DNA of 64,000 nucleotides from assembly GCA_009823395.1 (NCBI GenBank), contig CM020501.1, positions 11,975,361-12,039,360 on the forward strand, in the 5' to 3' direction. Position numbers and translations under genes: made by a program. Every line of letters begins with the position of its first letter. The stretch's first letter is position 1. The notes under the pieces were generated by a model. The model was not told the origin of the DNA, searched no databases, and saw only the letters and a program-made list of their open reading frames with translations. This DNA is from Thamnaconus septentrionalis (Eukaryota > Chordata > Actinopteri > Tetraodontiformes > Monacanthidae). Of this stretch, positions 5,965 to 61,875 are shown piece after piece.

Positions 5965-7332
<1,368 letters not shown>

Positions 7333-48893: not shown

Positions 48894-51122
48894 ATCTGGA
48901 GGAAGGGGGTGTGGTACACTGATGCCTTTGTGCTTTTTGTGCAACCAATCGAGTCTGCTGGTGAAGAGAATTTAAATTGTCTACTGAACTGTGTTTTATG
49001 TGATTTTTGACTTGATCCCTTAAATTTAAAAGCAAAATTTGTGTTCAGGGAAAATAAGAAGTTGAAAATGAAGAAAATAGTCATAGAATAACGTCTCCAT
49101 TCTGTCCGTAAACAAAGGAAGTATTATTTGTGTGCACAATTTTTTCAAAATGGTTAAAAGTGATATTCTGAGAGCAAGAATGTTTGCAGCTAACACAATG
49201 TGTCAGCATTTACACTTCCACACCAATACCAAAAACTCCCTCCTAAACTTTAAACAAAGAGTTGTGAGCTGTTCTGAAAATGTCCTTCACATTATCAGGA
49301 CAGGTGCATCAGAGTGCCGAAAAACCAAAAGAACCACTAACAGTTCTGGGTTCTGCTTTCCCCTCCAACGTACTTGTAAGAAGCAGCTTCCGACGTCGCT
49401 GTGCTCCAGTACGGAAGCGTTGTAGAGCTGCTGCAGGAAGACGGGCTCGTTGTCGTTGACGTCCTCCACTAGCACGGTGACGGTCGCCGTGGACGACAGT
49501 GGCGGATCTCCCTGGTCGGCCGCCACCACGAGGAACCGCAGCTCCGACTGCATCTCTCTGTCCAGGGCTGCCGCCGTGGTGACCAGGCCCGTCTCTGGCT
49601 CCACGCTGATCAGGCCGTCCCGGCTGGACCTGAGGACCGAGTACCTGAGCTCCGAGTTGACGCCCTCGTCGGCATCTCGGGCCCGCACCTGGATGAGGGA
49701 ACTCCCCTTAGGGGCATCCTCGGCGATGCTGACGGTGTACGAGTCCTTCTCAAACACCGGGCGGCAGTCGTTTGCGTCAGACACCCTCAGGACAAGGATC
49801 TTCTCGCTGGCGAGGGGAGGGTCCCCAGAGTCGGACGCCCGCACCTTCAGCTCGTACAGGTCCCTCTCCTCGCGGTCCAGCTCCCCACTCACGGACAGAG
49901 TGTAGAGAAAGTCGTCGCTCTGCTGCTTCAGGGTGAACTTCCCATCGCCCCCGTCCAATGTGACGGCGAGCGAATCCTCCCCAAAGTCGGGATCCGACAC
50001 CGAGATCCTCGCCACGTAGTCGCCGACCGAGGCCGCCTCAGAGACCACGGCGTCCCCCAACTCGCTGAGGAACAGCACGCTGACGGCAGGGCTGTTGTCG
50101 TTGACGTTGACGACCTTCACGCCGACGTAGGTGCTGCTGCGCTCGGGCTGGGCGCCGTTGTCCCTGGCGCTGACGATCAACTCGTGGAAGGCCTGGGCCT
50201 CGTAGTCCAGGGGCTTGTTGAGGTAGATCACACCGGTGGTCTCGTTGATGGCGAAGACCTCGTCAGGGTCACTCTGCCGCCGGTTGATCTCGTACGTGAC
50301 CCTGCCGTTCTCGCCCAGGTCGAGGTCGGCGGCATGCACTCGACACACGCTGGACATCAGCCGGGCATCCTCCGGCAGAGAGGCGTGATACTCTGACCGG
50401 TTGAAGACCGGCGGGTTGTCGTTCTCGTCTAGGACATGAACGTTCAACGTGAGGGTCCCGGTCCTGGCCGGGATGCCGCCGTCAAAGGCCTCCACGGCGA
50501 AGGAGTAGAAGTCCTGCGTTTCTCGGTCCAGTTTGCTGGCGAGGATGAGGTCCAGGCTTGGGTGGGTCTCCGATCCAACGCGATACTCCAGGCGGAACAA
50601 ATCCAGCATCCCGCCGTCAGTGATCCTGTACCCCTGGGTACCGAACTCACCCTCATCCGCATCTTTGGCACCTTCCAGCTGGAAGCGGCTGCCCAGAGGG
50701 CTTAGTTCTGACACCTCCAGATTCACCTCGTCTGAGGGGAACGCGGGTGAATGATCGTTCACGTCCTCCACCTCGATCTCCACTCTGATCATCTCACCCG
50801 TCAAGGTCGCGGCCACGAACTCGTACTTGTCTCTGCTCTCCCGGTCCAGGACCACAGCGGTGGAGATTATGCCCGTGTCCGCGTCGATCTCCAGGTCCCT
50901 GAACACGTACGAGTCCCTGCTCTCCGAGATGAAGAAGCCGGTGCTCGGCCTGCTCAGTCCCGCCCCGAGGTCTCCGACGATGGTTCGGGCGGGTAGACCC
51001 TCTTTGACGGACAGCGTCAGGTTGAACACCTGGCCGAGCGTTTGCGCGCAAAGCAGCGCCAAGACGAGCGGCCGCAGGAGTCTGGGCGCGCCGCTTCCGC
51101 CGGCCATTCCCCAGTCACACAT
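24608..51122 (-). CDS. dchs2: Dachsous cadherin-related 2, 20 coding exons
   Basis: Exons in transcript order: 51122-49374, 47548-47357, 47245-47014, 45693-45457, 43524-42493, 42274-42087, 41689-41590, 41495-41335, 41185-40333, 39501-39262, 35274-35143, 33191-32982, 32385-31525, 30886-30773, 30047-29836, 29739-29588, 29182-29052, 28970-28684, 28201-28060, 27213-24608. All phases agree and the CDS is 9831 nt (3276 aa). Dachsous is a giant protocadherin that binds Fat cadherins between cells in planar polarity and growth control. The model has a signal peptide, 27 cadherin repeats (counted by DxNDN linkers and their degenerate equivalents, the canonical Dachsous number), one transmembrane helix at about residues 2911-2933 and a cytoplasmic tail of about 343 aa. 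The 27 repeats plus position between sfrp2 and plrg1 identify DCHS2 rather than DCHS1, a FAT or a clustered protocadherin. The exon 11 acceptor is the least certain junction. Confidence 0.93.
27214..28059. other. dchs2: dchs2 intron 19
   Basis: No second gene or repeat family is recognised. The intron is AT-rich. Confidence 0.6.
30048..31524. other. dchs2: dchs2 introns 13 and 14, around the 114-nt exon 14
   Basis: Exon 14 (30886-30773) encodes TWITKVEAIEQTSS...NHDFSINRHTG and is too short to stand out as an ORF. It was placed by the acceptor AAG, the donor GTAAGA and matching phase 1 on both sides. The flanking introns are AT-rich, with nothing else recognisable. Confidence 0.7.
32875..32919. 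repeat. (CA)n microsatellite in dchs2 intron 12
   Basis: About 22 CA units, 60 nt downstream of the exon 12 donor in transcript sense. Confidence 0.95.
33192..35142. other. dchs2: dchs2 intron 11
   Basis: Close to 2 kb without coding signal. A TG run on the plus strand (35119-35132) lies 10-24 nt inside the intron from the exon 11 donor. A 158-codon ORF at 34016-34492 looks spurious. Confidence 0.6.
35309..35347. repeat. (GAA)n microsatellite serving as pyrimidine tract of dchs2 exon 11
   Basis: Read on the minus strand this is a TTC/CTT tract ending about 35 nt before the exon 11 acceptor. Confidence 0.9.
37837..37878. repeat. 42-nt hairpin in dchs2 intron 10
   Basis: TTCACTCCATTA and TAATGGAGTGAA pair around a 3-nt loop. 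After a small bulge, GCTGTTT pairs with AAACAGC. The loop is too short for a typical microRNA. Confidence 0.65.
39798..39811 (-). promoter_or_regulatory. CTCF-like motif (minus orientation) in dchs2 intron 9
   Basis: On the minus strand, CCAGTAGGGGGCGA matches 13 of 14 positions of CCASYAGRKGGCRS. Similar words also occur in fish repeats, so specificity is limited. Confidence 0.35.
39975..40018. repeat. (CA)n microsatellite in dchs2 intron 9
   Basis: About 21 CA units followed by TATATACAAATATATAC. Confidence 0.95.
44713..44762. repeat. (GAT)n microsatellite in dchs2 intron 4
   Basis: About 16 uninterrupted GAT/ATG units. Confidence 0.95.
44800..44876 (+). repeat. Fish LINE/SINE-like 3' tail
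   Basis: Reads TTGTAAATAAGAATTTGTTC, then TTAATGCCTGATCAAATAAA and ends A-rich. This tail is shared by many fish retroelements ('GTAAATAAGAATTTGTTCTTAA...AAATAAAGG'). No 5' body is recognised. Confidence 0.6.
45694..47013. other. dchs2: dchs2 intron 3
   Basis: Contains the interspersed repeat at 46648-46905. The rest is AT-rich without recognisable content. Confidence 0.6.
46648..46905 (+). repeat. Decayed fish interspersed repeat (ATCAATCAAC...GAAACCTTGACCAGACC type)
   Basis: In order it shows the landmarks of a very common fish repeat: AATCAATCAAC, a TTTATA-like word, GAAGTGCTTTGCACAATG, GTGGCAGCGAAAAACTC, GGGAAGAAACCTTGACCAGA and a closing foldback. The CAGATGGCTGCCC and GGGCAGCCATCTG arms of that foldback (46846-46876) pair perfectly. 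Family assignment is from memory of the pattern only. Confidence 0.6.
47604..47691 (+). repeat. Fish interspersed repeat fragment (CCATCCATTTTC...CCCAGCTGTC type)
   Basis: CCATCCATTTTC, ACCCGCTTCTTCC, GGGTCGCAGGGGTCTGCTGG, AGCCTCTCCCAGCTGTCATA and GGGCGAAGGCAGG occur in order. These are the landmarks of a repeat found throughout fish genomes. A second short fragment is at 59678-59715. Confidence 0.7.
48862..48892. repeat. (GT)n microsatellite in dchs2 intron 1
   Basis: About 15 GT units. Confidence 0.95.
49374..51122 (-). CDS. dchs2: dchs2 exon 1: signal peptide and first five cadherin repeats
   Basis: One 1749-nt exon encodes the start Met at 51122 (a second Met lies five codons on), a hydrophobic signal peptide (LLRPLVLALLCAQTLG) and the first five cadherin repeats. 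Their linkers read DVNDHSP, DENDNPP, NVNDNSP, DANDCRP and DVNDNEP. It ends in phase 0 at the donor CAA|GTACGT. It is GC-rich, with a CpG-rich flank that continues into the promoter region. Confidence 0.93.
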
Positions 51123-52375
51123 GGTTTAAGAGTTTTTATATGTATATGTGGAAAATCTGGCTACATAGTTCCGGGTTACTCGCTCCTCGATTGCTTTTTT
51201 TAAGCACCTACCCAAACAAAAGCAGGTAAATGCACCATTTTTGCGCGCAGCCAAACAGCCAGCCGCTATCGTCCATGGTCGTTTCTTATCGGCTCGTCCC
51301 GTAACTTTGGAAATAAAAAAAGAAAAATCCTGAATGAACACAAATCAAGTTGCGTGGTTCTCCGGGGCTCCTTCACTTACTCTCGGCAGCGCCGAGTGGC
51401 CACGCAGCCAGCAGCCCACCCACTGTGCGCACTGCGTGCGCCTCCTGGCAAGCGTCACATCCCACGCTGATCGGCTCCATCTGTGGCTCTGATTGAATTA
51501 GGCCGCGAGATTAAGACCTACCGGACTGACAGGTGGCACACGAGCCTCATGTTTGAACTCCAAACTGCCAGGTGGGTCGCGGGAAAGCGGTTTCAACACC
51601 GGTCCAAGTGTGGGAAGACAGCGGCGCTTCTGGAATGGTGACAGCGGGGACGATTCCGACGTAGTCTGTGCTAGAAATCCAATAAATAGACGCTTGATTG
51701 TGCTCAGGTTTGGCGCAGTTCAGTCCATGTCGAAGTAGCTCCATCTAGCGGCAAGACGATAGAAAAAGCACCTTTCAAAACGCACAACGGGCCTGATGGT
51801 GATTTTTCGACAAAGGCAAATTATTCCGCCATAAAGGTCTTCACAATATTTTTTTTTTACATTAAATAATAATTATAATAATCTCGTTTAAGAAAATTCT
51901 GCACCGATACATCCTCTAGTATTTTGAATTTCCAGACTTTTACGCCTGAATACATATATTATTTTCCTATAAAGTTTTGTGTATAAATAGTCGTACAAGG
52001 CCGTTCATGTCCTAGATGAGAAAATATAAGATCTGAAACATATGTTTAGGATATTTTTTTAAATTTAAAAATATAGACTGAAGAAAATATAAATAAAAAC
52101 ATAATATGTTAATTTCTGAGGATAATCATTTTTAGGATTTGAATGCATACAGCCTCACTATTTTGGAAGTGTAAGGTGACAAAGGTCAGATTCATCCCCA
52201 CAGTCATCGTGTTACCAAAGTGAAGCTACTGGTCCAGCAGGAATTGAGACTCACCAGCACGCTGCGTCACCAGGTAACAGGTATAAGTAACCTGGGCTGG
52301 AAACAAACAACAGAGCGACTCAGCTGCCTGCCAGGGCCATTTAGTTGAGCGCCTCCACACACTCTAAGATCAAAA
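51123..52375. promoter_or_regulatory. Shared divergent upstream region of dchs2 and the TIR gene
   Basis: The start codons of dchs2 (minus) and the TIR gene (plus) are 1.25 kb apart, head to head. The dchs2 side (to about 51740) is GC- and CpG-rich like a CpG-island promoter. The middle (51780-52150) is strongly AT-rich. The TIR side is ordinary. No TATA box could be placed with confidence. Confidence 0.5.
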
Positions 52376-53915
52376 ATGCCGACTCACATCATGCTCTCCT
52401 ACCAGTGGGACGACCAGGCTCTGGTGAAGAAGGTTCACGATCGCCTCAGGGACCAGGGCCTCCCAGTGTGGATGGACATCGAAGGCGGGGTGACTGGGAA
52501 CATCAACGACTCGTAAGCAGCCGCCTGACGCTCTATCAACAAGAAAAGAACGAAGAGGAGAGGAGAGGAGAGTCATGACAGTCTGTGTGTTTCACTGTGT
52601 GTTCAGGATGGCTGCGGGCGTGGAGGAGGCCGCCGTCGTCTGTCCGTTCATGACTCCGGCTTACCAGGCGTCACGCAGCTGCAAGAAAGAGCTGAGCTAC
52701 GCTGACGCCAGGGAGGTCGCCATCGTGCCCGTCATGCTGGCTGACGGCTGGGAGGCCAGCGAGTGGCTGGGACTGATCACCGCCGGCCTGCTGTGGGTGG
52801 ACTTCAGGTGAGCCGGGGCCCTGGGGGACGACTCAACTGCTGCGACATGGCAAGAAAAGAAAGTGTTTCTTTAAATCTGTAAAACGGCTTTTTTAGAGGC
52901 GCAGGAGAGGATGAGGAGCACTTTGAGATGTGCGTCAGCTCCCTGGTGGAGGAGATCATGTTTAGTGGCGGCCCACTCCTGGCAGCTGAGGAGGCAGCAA
53001 CAGACTCGACTGGTCGGGCCGGACACCTCAAATCCATCCTGGGGAAGAAACCCGGTCGCGGGTTTTGTCACAAAGTCACAAAGCTGTACATGTGTGACTC
53101 AGGTACATGTTAGAACAAATGCAAAATAACAGTCATGATGATGACAAGAACATGATGGATACACTATTATCATCAGCTTGCCGATTGTCAAGAAGTGGCT
53201 TCAGAGGGCTGGGAATGTTCTGGCTAAAGTGACTTAGCTTTCTCTCCTTTCTGAAAAGTAGAACATGCTTAAGTAAAGTAAGCAAGTAAAGGCTGGACAG
53301 AATAGAGACACGGATTACTATTAAAAAGTGAGTTTTGCTTGAAACCAAACCTTTAAAAACATCTGTTGTTTTTGTTAAATAAAGATGGGCTGCTGAGTGA
53401 CCGTGGTGGCCCAAACACAAACACAGTGGAGCTCAACGAGACCATAGGAGACCATTGTTACTGGAAGGAGATCAAGGGTAACGGCTGTAAATACTACAGG
53501 AACCTGGTGACCAACAGATACCTGGGTATGGACAGAAACTCACCAAACAAAAGCATGTTTATGAAAATGTGGTCTTTATTAAAAAGAAGCAAAAAACAAA
53601 CATGTCGGAAGGGTGTTGTTTGTATTTTTTTTTTTTTTTTTTTACCGGGCAAACATAATTTAATTTGACTTAAATCAACTGAATTTTTTGTCCTTTCCTC
53701 TCGCAGGGATCGACTCTATCGGGACGAAGGTCTACTCAGCGATCGGCCCGTCTGTGTGTGAGGAGTGGCAGCTTCTGGTGGATCAGATGGACCAGAGCCA
53801 CCAGAGAGCCGTCGTCATCAAGAACAAACACTCCGGGAGCTTCCTGGCAGTCCGAGGTGGCCGTTTCGTCGGGGCAGCATCGTACAATGAAGACTGCAAA
53901 TGGATTTTAGTCTAA
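52376..53915 (+). CDS. TIR domain plus C-terminal beta-trefoil-like protein, five exons
   Basis: Exons 52376-52512, 52607-52807, 52897-53102, 53385-53525 and 53707-53915. All are GT-AG with matching phases (2,2,1,1), giving 297 aa. Residues 1 to about 135 form a TIR domain: strand A HIMLSYQW, WMDIEGG at the B strand and BB loop, then VVCPFMTPAYQ, SCKKELSYAD and IVPVML. Glu74 in SCKKEL sits where TIR NAD-hydrolases carry their catalytic glutamate. From about residue 160, three lobes each end in a Trp motif (CYWKEI, EEWQLL, CKWILV), with fascin-like wording such as TNRYLGID and IKNKHSGSFLAV. This fits a beta-trefoil. No signal peptide, TM segment, LRR or death domain is seen, so it is probably cytosolic and neither a Toll-like receptor nor a MyD88-type adaptor. 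I recognise the architecture but no named gene; function is unknown. AATAAA follows the stop by 5 nt. Confidence 0.88.
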
Positions 53916-53919
53916 ACCA

Positions 53920-53925
53920 AATAAA
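53920..53925 (+). terminator. Poly(A) signal of the TIR gene
   Basis: AATAAA begins 5 nt after the stop codon, giving a very short 3'UTR. Confidence 0.65.
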
Positions 53926-53952: not shown

Positions 53953-54075
53953 CAAAAACAAAACAGATATAAAGAAGTTTTCCAAATTAAAGGCCGTTAT
54001 CTACATCAAGGGAAGCGACAGAAACGAAACAGTAACTGTGACAGCGTGGGACGAAAAAAAACAACAACCCAGAAA

Positions 54076-55357
54076 TTAAAATTTCTTTCTTTTGAGAATC
54101 TCTGGCTTCCAGTTGACTGGGTGGCTTTCCTCCGTCTGCAAGAACAAATAAAACATTGTTGTTGAGGCGCTGCCTGGAACACTGGGACAGCGCAAACACT
54201 GTCAATCTGTGCGGTGAAACTTACAGCAGTGGTGTCCTCTCTGTACACTTTAATGGTCTTGTCGGCCTCGGCTGTGATCAGTTTGGTCTGACTGATGTCG
54301 AACATGCAGGCGAAGATGCCCGACTCGCTGTCCAGAGATCCGGGCTGCACGGCTGCATGGATGCGCTGGAAGTTGTAGCCGGTCCTCCAGTCCCACATGT
54401 GGATGGTTCCGTTGTCGGCTGCGGAGAGAGCCAACCGCAGTGCAGTGTGTTGAGTGTCCCTGATCCTTCGTTATCACCACTTGTATCACAGCCATGACTG
54501 ACTAATGCTTATCAACGTCGTCCGATTCATTACCTCCAGACACCAAAACGCCATCGGTGTTCACAGCCAGAGTGTTGATGATGGCGTTGTGACCCGACAG
54601 GTTCTGGGTGAATTTGCCATCCGGGAACATCCACTGCTTGATGTTGTCAGCAGAACCAGAAGCAAACGTGTATCTGAGACACAAAACACAAGAGAGGGTG
54701 TTTCAATGTGAACGTAGTCTCACCTCTGTTCTGTTGATCAAAAGAGCAGCGCGAGCGACCTCTCCTGACTAAAAGGTTTCCCACGTGATCGCGTTGCCAG
54801 GTGTGTTCTGGAATCAACCCCCCTCGTGATGTCACAAAGGGAATTGCCACCAGAACTTTAGAGCCAGTGTTTGCGCAGGAAGCTATAAGCAGGTAGGTAC
54901 AATATGACCCTCTCATTATGACCTTTTCGTGTGACCCTAACCTACAAACCTACAAAACACAATAAACAGGAGAGTTTACTGACATTTCTGAAGTTTCATC
55001 ATAACAATGCATCATATTTTAAAAAAATAATACCAATGCCAATTTCTCACAGATGTCAAAGTGTGAGACTGTATTTTATTTTAAGTCTTCAAAATAGGAA
55101 ATATGACAATGTGTGTGCAAACCAGTGGGTGCAGGAACTGACTGATGTGCTCAGAGAATGGAGGTCACTCACTGTTTGGGGTGCAGTGCAATCGTTCGCA
55201 CGGATTTCTTGTGGTTTGTCAGAGTTACTCTGGTTTTCCCCGCGACCAAATCCCACAGCCTGATGGTTGAATCGTGACTTCCTGCAAAAAGTCAAACAGG
55301 TGCAACTTCATGTTCACGAGCGGCCGAACAGCAACATGACTTGACAACATGGATTAT

Positions 55358-60162: not shown

Positions 60163-61875
60163 TTAAGCGTCTCCAAGTCCACCAAACTGTTTGGTTCCAG
60201 ACTGCTGCCCACCGGTTGCCAGGCGGCTGAGGGGGATGAGCTTCATGGTGGTCTCCTTTAGCGAGTACCAGCGGTCGTGCCACGTGACCCAAATAATGCC
60301 GTTGTCAAAGCCAAATTCACCTGCGTCCTTTGCACTGTACCTGCCACCTAAATGGATGGGAACGCAGAGAATTAAAAGTGAGCATTATATGATATTTTAA
60401 TGTATGATAGTATAACACGTACTGAGCTGTGAAGCGCAAGAAGCCTTGCAGTCTTACCTTGGTAGTATTTGCCATTCAAATGTGCGGCGTGGCACCGGTT
60501 CATCCACCAGCCGGAGCCGTCCTGCAGGGCACAGTTCCCGTCGAATGCGTCGTTATCGTTGTCGAAGGTGCTGAACTTTATGCCGTTGTGGGACGTGTAA
60601 AACTTGTCGCTGGGGTCGTCACCAAAGTCAAAGCCGGCAAAGGCATCGCCGGCGTTACCGCCAAAGTAGAAGCCGTACATCAGGCGGTAACCGTCGGCCT
60701 CAGATCCCATCCTGAACATGGTGTAGTCGGCATACCTGGTGAAAGGATTCATGTGTGGTGAGATTTTCTTCTGTTCCAAAGGGTCATATTTGCCAACTCA
60801 GACAATTTGTTCCCCTCTTGCATAACTTGTTATCTCCCGTCTCTGTGTGTAGGAGCATATGTACCGCTTATTGCCCTCCCAGTCGACCAGCTCTATCCTC
60901 AGCACTAAGGGGATGGTAGTAGTGGTCGTTAGGTGATAGATTTTCTCGTTGCCCAGCCAGAACTCTGTGGAGTCGTCTGGTGAGAGATAACCAAAGCCCT
61001 CCCTGTATTGGATCCAGTCCTTGTGGAAGTCCACGCTTCCGTCACGTCTCTGCGTGCAAAACAAACAACGGTGTGAGACTGCTTCAGGCTCATCGTTTTT
61101 ATTAAGTGTGATATGGAAACAGCTAACAGGCTAACCCTTTGGATGACTGTGAAACCACGGCGGGAGCTGTCAATCTCGCAGTAGACAAGGAACTGCTGAG
61201 GGGCCGTAGCTGGCTTCACATAGTAAAGACCACTGGTAGTGGCGCCTTTGTTGGCCACGTCCTGGCAGTCTGACAAAGAGAGAAGAACGGTGAGAGTTAA
61301 ATGAAACTGAAGCTTCACCTTTCAACGTAAAAAAATTGCCAGGTCAGCCCAGATCCAAAACATGTTTACTTTGCAGCGAATCGATTTTTGTCAAACCAAA
61401 TACTGAACAAGGACAAATGTTCAGATGGTGCAGGGTTGAAAAACCTCTTGCGCAATACAAACAGCCTGAGCTTTAGTCATTTATTCATTATCATCTTTTT
61501 TCTACCTGTTCCCGTGATGGTCTGGATCTCGACGGTGTCTTTGCACGGTGCGCTGCACTTCTGCTGCAGCTGCTGGGAGAGTGTTTTCAGGTCTGTCATC
61601 CTCCTCTCGTTGGATACGAGCAAACTTTGGAGATCGCTGAGTTGGAGGAAGGAAAATGAGCGGCATGAGATGCTTTACGTTCTTTCACAGTGTTGAGTGC
61701 TGGGCATTTAAAGGAGCTGGTGAAAAAAATACATTTTCTAATTTGTGGCATCAGGCGTCTATGAGGAAAAAGTGGGCGGCAAATGTTGCCTCGCTCGGCA
61801 TTCAGCCAAAACTGTGTGGGTGTATGTACTCATCTGGAGATGTGGGCGGCAGGTCAGGCAACAAAAGCATGATGC

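Follow-up and report, generated by a model that had tools for sequence, protein, structure and literature searches.

TIR domains and the closest described systems

The biology of vertebrate TIR domains has been framed around Toll/interleukin-1 (IL-1) receptors, their adaptors and SARM1. A further group, the ecTIR-DC proteins, was reportedly described by Gerdol et al. in 2017. These proteins appear to be absent in vertebrates (PMC6321704, citing Gerdol et al.). As of 2020, SARM1 was the only metazoan TIR protein with known nicotinamide adenine dinucleotide (NAD+) hydrolase activity (PMC7075850), and several eukaryotic TIR clades have gone unstudied because model species lack them (PMC13142454). 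The gene considered here lies at positions 52376..53915, on the forward strand, of a 64,000-nucleotide stretch of the Thamnaconus septentrionalis genome (the window). It is an intact five-exon gene whose product joins a TIR domain to a single beta-trefoil, and it belongs to a family that spans the animals and is perhaps older. A tentative reading is that this soluble TIR-linker-trefoil protein acts as a ligand-gated TIR, more likely as an enzyme than as a pure adaptor.

An intact gene for a TIR-trefoil protein

The gene is confirmed. Its joined coding sequence of 894 nt, stop included, encodes 297 amino acids in one reading frame free of internal stops and frameshifts. Exons start in phases 0, 2, 2, 1 and 1, all four introns have GT...AG boundaries, and homologues align along the full length, in keeping with the five clean exons of a first-pass annotation. 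Support for the splicing is comparative, from homologous proteins and intron positions. In eight fish species or clusters (P0036, P0041, P0042, P0043, P0048, P0050, P0051 and P0085) the predicted proteins leave the family after exon 4, with YLG followed by residues coded by intron 4 (window 53526-53706). Such models may be artefacts of annotation; alternatively, they represent a short isoform in which the trefoil is broken and which might be a released TIR.

The N-terminal TIR and C-terminal trefoil that the annotation had proposed were both recovered. Pfam TIR_2 scores 84.2 bits in the window protein against a cut-off of 28 and matches 72/72 homologues at E<=1, and a TIR fold is predicted with confidence by structure model and structural alignment. 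By profile, the PDB sequence that comes closest is that of the CRISPR-associated TIR Cat1 (E 1.4e-5), followed by TIR-1, plant TIRs and SARM1, with one SEFIR protein among them; weak matches to a defence library include SAVED-TIR, bSEFIR and ThsB. The C-terminal half is likewise confidently predicted to be a trefoil of three four-strand lobes, from the structure model of P0001 and from structural alignment, and the order in the model is TIR, a flexible linker of ~20 residues and a single beta-trefoil. The 297 residues consist of these three parts, and neither an ectodomain nor a membrane segment nor a death domain was seen in them. No trefoil Pfam model reaches its cut-off (RicinB_lectin_2, PF14200, has E 0.12 and 13.5 bits against 25.6; lectin matches among homologues are weak and number 2/72), and a trefoil-only sequence profile finds no significant match in the PDB (best E 0.19, SeviL 0.41); the trefoil call therefore rests on structure prediction and structural alignment.

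Each lobe carries one conserved tryptophan (Trp208, Trp249 and Trp294), all kept in the window protein. The QxW motif was not found in the lobes: in most sequences the residue two positions before Trp208 is S or C, that before Trp249 is E and that before Trp294 is C. The suggested likeness to fascin survived as to the trefoil itself but found no specific support beyond it: FGF1 and fascin score equally as structural matches, the marks of a ricin-B lectin are missing, and fascin is absent from the 19 Pfam families matched by the 72 homologues, the window protein having one trefoil. A fascin or actin-binding reading was dropped, having found no specific support in Pfam scans or structural alignment.

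Age and inheritance of the family

The annotation had also taken this to be an old gene kept in fish, with a TIR of a wording known from invertebrates, and the searches bear this out. Searching with the 297-residue product returned 104 proteins at E<=1e-3, the best with E 1.7e-140 and 71% identity across its entire length; a profile search gave 175 matches, and organism statements cover 120 of these. Relatives occur in fish, cnidarians and worms. Near-full-length matches come from percomorphs, Lota, Coilia, Sardina, Denticeps, several eels, Aldrovandia and Megalops among fish, and from the cnidarians Rhopilema, Clytia, Nematostella, Exaiptasia, Porites, Oculina and Desmophyllum; others belong to Macrostomum, Owenia, Dimorphilus and Tubulanus, and one from Convolutriloba lacks the N-terminus. 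A partial Latimeria model (P0126) holds the TIR and the first trefoil strands and stops at the position of intron 3. One match, P0111, bears the EukProt label Opistho-2, presumably the filasterean Pigoraptor chileana, and may reflect transcriptome contamination.

No named tetrapod orthologue is among the 120 of 175 profile matches listed. One record labelled Mustela putorius furo (P0076) clusters with a tilapia sequence and is probably of fish origin, through mislabelling or contamination. Carp, catfish, salmonid, gar and shark are not among the named matches listed, which makes several losses within fish likely, although absent gene models could mimic this pattern. The Denticeps clupeoides copy (P0049) is fast-evolving (branch 0.52), with a TIR that lacks the GNIND stretch, and may be decaying or altered in function. 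TIRs of the SYQW...WMDI type also occur with other partners (P0090, P0091, P0099, P0100, P0128 and P0133), including rotifer NHL repeats, a protein kinase domain and unassigned C-terminal regions, and in a chytrid protein.

Intron positions were compared by script over 216 proteins, many of them open frames taken from genomic DNA, in which an exon reads on into the intron; outside fish the comparison covers introns 3 and 4. Exactly at Gly229, 26 frames end and 23 begin, of which 12 and 17, respectively, are fish-like by best reference and the remainder coral-, jellyfish- or other non-fish-like. A further 11 starts at residues 227-228 are, in our reading, chance extensions by one or two residues. 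Residues 181-182 hold 15 starts, of which 14 are non-fish and a single one is from fish. These breakpoints coincide with the fish positions of introns 4 and 3, and the phase agrees: Gly stands at the junction, and Gly-Lys is found in 11/14 non-fish ends, as a phase-1 junction of G followed by GTAAG predicts. In a midpoint-drawn tree of 31 rows, coelacanth and teleosts stand apart from all others with support of 100/100.

Because introns 3 and 4 are common to both sides and the vertebrates form one group with that support, descent with losses is favoured over transfer of the gene from one animal lineage to another and over a fusion that happened twice, and the comparison of sequences argues for a TIR-trefoil gene inherited whole. 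A recent bacterial origin was rejected as well, none of 44 pattern matches in a contig scan having been confirmed. So was the trefoil as a mobile module: in a trefoil-only profile search restricted to proteins of roughly 75-240 residues, in which longer ones could not appear, the clear homologues among 37/96 matches were exon fragments or partial models of the TIR-trefoil gene.

A candidate binding site in lobe 2

Conservation was scored by script over 67 sequences, including 23 percomorph, 33 non-fish and eight herring/eel/tarpon sequences. Between percomorphs and non-fish, identity is 54% in the TIR and 34% in the trefoil; among non-fish, the trefoil is 67% identical and the TIR 61%. One lobe-2 motif, YDPNGDYxYTKxQHYGAEEW, hardly varies among the 33 non-fish sequences (29-33 of 33 at most positions), as would be expected of a binding site. 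In the structure model it forms a hairpin and the next loop, and such sites often bind ligands in trefoils; it is the best candidate for the site of binding and for a switch of ligand. In percomorphs, the window protein included, the motif is replaced. Of the positions within 230-246, 12 are conserved in non-fish but different in percomorphs; the non-fish residue is the majority in the eight herring/eel/tarpon sequences at 233, 234, 236, 238, 239, 240, 245 and 246, and not at 230, 235, 243 and 244. The percomorph replacement suggests a changed ligand or partner, and the contrast with near-invariance outside fish makes that change directly testable.

Ligand-gated enzyme or adaptor

The proposed protein would work in the cytosol. 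Its trefoil would bind a ligand or partner, most likely through lobe 2, and binding would draw TIR domains together; the clustered TIR would then act on NAD+ or a related nucleotide, more probably than serve a pure adaptor role, with an output in innate defence or cell death. The wider first-pass reading, an old cytosolic TIR effector or sensor with a trefoil module, is partly supported: it stands as to age and folds and finds no specific support as to actin binding.

In alignments with SARM1 and TIR-1, Glu74 falls on their KEI/KEL glutamate, which in SARM1 we take to be E642. Glu74 is invariant in 72/72 family members and in 40/40 of a wider TIR set that includes trefoil-free proteins. All enzymatic TIRs examined depend on this glutamate (PMC10022894), and NAD+ hydrolysis by human SARM1 requires E642 (PMC9223315). 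Other observations weigh against a simple NAD hydrolase or would suit a non-enzymatic adaptor or decoy, in which TIR-TIR contacts tune Toll/IL-1-type signalling while the trefoil tethers it to a receptor, a membrane or the cytoskeleton. Position Glu-4 is N in 52/72 and S in 20/72 members and Trp in 0/72, and Trp at this position is a ligand contact in SARM1 (PMC7075850); the same glutamate is also found in TIRs of the TLR1/2/6/10 type of Toll-like receptor (TLR) (PMC7075850); and the TIR of Hydra TRR-2 ties for best structural match to the family TIR. An adaptor is nevertheless judged rather unlikely, given that TIRAP, MyD88 and endosomal TLRs seldom have the glutamate (PMC7075850) that is invariant here, that the nearest PDB profile match, Cat1, is no adaptor, and that the TIR identity between percomorphs and non-fish is high for one. 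Weighed against the absent Trp, the invariance of Glu74 and the Cat1-type matches tip the reading, though not firmly, towards a ligand-gated TIR enzyme rather than an adaptor.

A glycan-reading trefoil could be one version of the sensor step. Such a cytosolic lectin-type sensor, reading glycans on damaged vesicles or microbes and then triggering the TIR, would be a specific form of the ligand-gated protein, but it is improbable: FGF1 and fascin reach the same structural score, the SeviL sequence match (E 0.05 to 0.41) falls in later subdomains and not in the sugar-binding alpha subdomain, the QxW motif is missing, and lectin Pfam matches are all below cut-off. That the window copy is decaying, so that no function could be read from it, would fit the patchy occurrence among fish, a lobe 1 that is 53% identical to percomorphs vs 66% among percomorphs, and a terminal branch of 0.40 vs 0.09 for grouper and sea bass. 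The idea is very hard to reconcile with the intact 297 codons, introns that are all GT-AG, a TIR 82% identical to percomorphs, and the retention of Glu74 and the three lobe tryptophans. Returning to a ligand-gated enzyme, a bolder extension, which we regard as doubtful, is that some vertebrates kept, beside SARM1, a second and separately evolved TIR enzyme. This cytosolic, ligand-gated TIR-trefoil would have come down from the earliest animals or from unicellular ancestors of theirs, would either produce a signal derived from NAD or deplete NAD+, and would have been lost on the line to tetrapods, its trefoil specificity being rebuilt in spiny-rayed fish.

Genomic setting

As the annotation had it, the gene sits between a dachsous-type cadherin gene, DCHS2 by position, and PLRG1. 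To its left, on the opposite strand, are cadherin exons, the nearest of which aligns with Protocadherin-16 (dachsous) from its chain N-terminus; PLRG1 and fibrinogen gamma lie to the right, and a stretch with an NTR domain far to the left. This order resembles that in human, presumably SFRP2-DCHS2-PLRG1-fibrinogen. An immune-inducible promoter was considered and rejected: over the whole window, matches resembling the interferon-stimulated response element number 7 against a shuffle mean of 5.5 and NF-kB-like matches 14 against 9.9, with 0 within 1 kb upstream. Rfam gave 0 matches in the window, and every NCBIfam match was far below cut-off.

Features of the TIR-trefoil gene and its neighbours (window positions)
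Feature	Position	Strand	Evidence
Whole TIR-beta-trefoil coding region	52376..53915	+	frame join; homologues
Exon 1, TIR start	52376..52512	+	frame join
Exon 2, TIR core	52607..52807	+	frame join
Glu74 codon	52689..52691	+	alignment with KEI/KEL glutamate of SARM1 and TIR-1; invariant 72/72
Exon 3: TIR end, linker, first trefoil strands; trefoil start near 53045	52897..53102	+	frame join, structure model
Intron 3, phase 1, codon 182	53103..53384	+	position matched in coral- or jellyfish-like fragments
Exon 4: lobe 1 of the trefoil and the first part of lobe 2	53385..53525	+	frame join, structure model
Intron 4, phase 1, codon 229	53526..53706	+	position matched in coral- or jellyfish-like fragments
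Exon 5: remainder of lobe 2, lobe 3, stop	53707..53915	+	frame join
Segment matching lobe-2 motif (near-invariant outside fish)	53709-53768	+	family alignment
AATAAA, possible polyadenylation signal directly 3' of stop	53920..53925	+	read from sequence
Cadherin neighbour: open stretch, five cadherin repeats, dachsous-type, DCHS2 by position	49287..51125	-	domain match
PLRG1 exon in open stretch	54006..54470	-	homology
NTR-domain stretch, SFRP-like by position	5965-6645	-	domain match
Fibrinogen C-domain stretches; part 60372-60797 gamma-type	60372-61130	-	domain match

A TIR_2 scan of the fish's own 474-Mb assembly, in which match counts are lower bounds, gave 7 matches: two exons of the TIR-trefoil gene, four in frames of 819-1061 residues that we infer to be TLR-sized, and one other, presumably TIRAP-like. 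No second TIR-trefoil is among these at least seven matches. Two of the long frames (L004 and L006) lie ~4 kb apart at G000 C14 16322674-16330337 and are probably tandem Toll-like receptor genes.

Comparison with known systems

Databases list proteins of this family as "TIR domain-containing" or "uncharacterized". The TIR-trefoil protein is not described in the literature searched, including the excerpts of the papers on group 18, clades 10-13, ecTIR-DC and plant TIR-lectins, nor does it mention any of six locus names that members carry; the proteins are thus on record, but no account of the TIR-trefoil architecture was found. Its occurrence in sea bass and grouper, and in anemones kept as laboratory animals, with introns common to fish and coral- or jellyfish-like genes, places it within experimental reach.

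Among the trefoil proteins FGF1, fascin and SeviL, the fold is common, but identity is 12-14% or lower and no Pfam membership lies above cut-off; fascin bundles actin with four trefoils, whereas here one trefoil follows a TIR. The NAD hydrolases SARM1 and Caenorhabditis elegans TIR-1 have the order ARM-SAM-TIR, no trefoil, and the Trp at Glu-4 that TIR-trefoil proteins lack. The prokaryotic defence TIRs SPARTA TIR-APAZ and Cat1 have other partner domains, and nothing prokaryotic that is related to the protein as a whole came out of the contig scan. Arabidopsis PP2-A5, a predicted TIR-lectin (PMC12355970), likewise joins a TIR to a domain of carbohydrate-binding type, but its PP2 domain is a beta-sandwich and not a trefoil. 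TIR group 18 (PMC7075850) and clades 10-13 (PMC13142454) bring together TIRs of lower metazoans and protists that have varied partners, some of them from bony fish; the wider TIR set found here resembles both in its kinase and NHL partners. Toll/IL-1 receptors and adaptors share the TIR fold; the TIR-trefoil protein shows none of their ectodomain, membrane segment or death domain and has a glutamate that is rare in MyD88 and TIRAP (PMC7075850).
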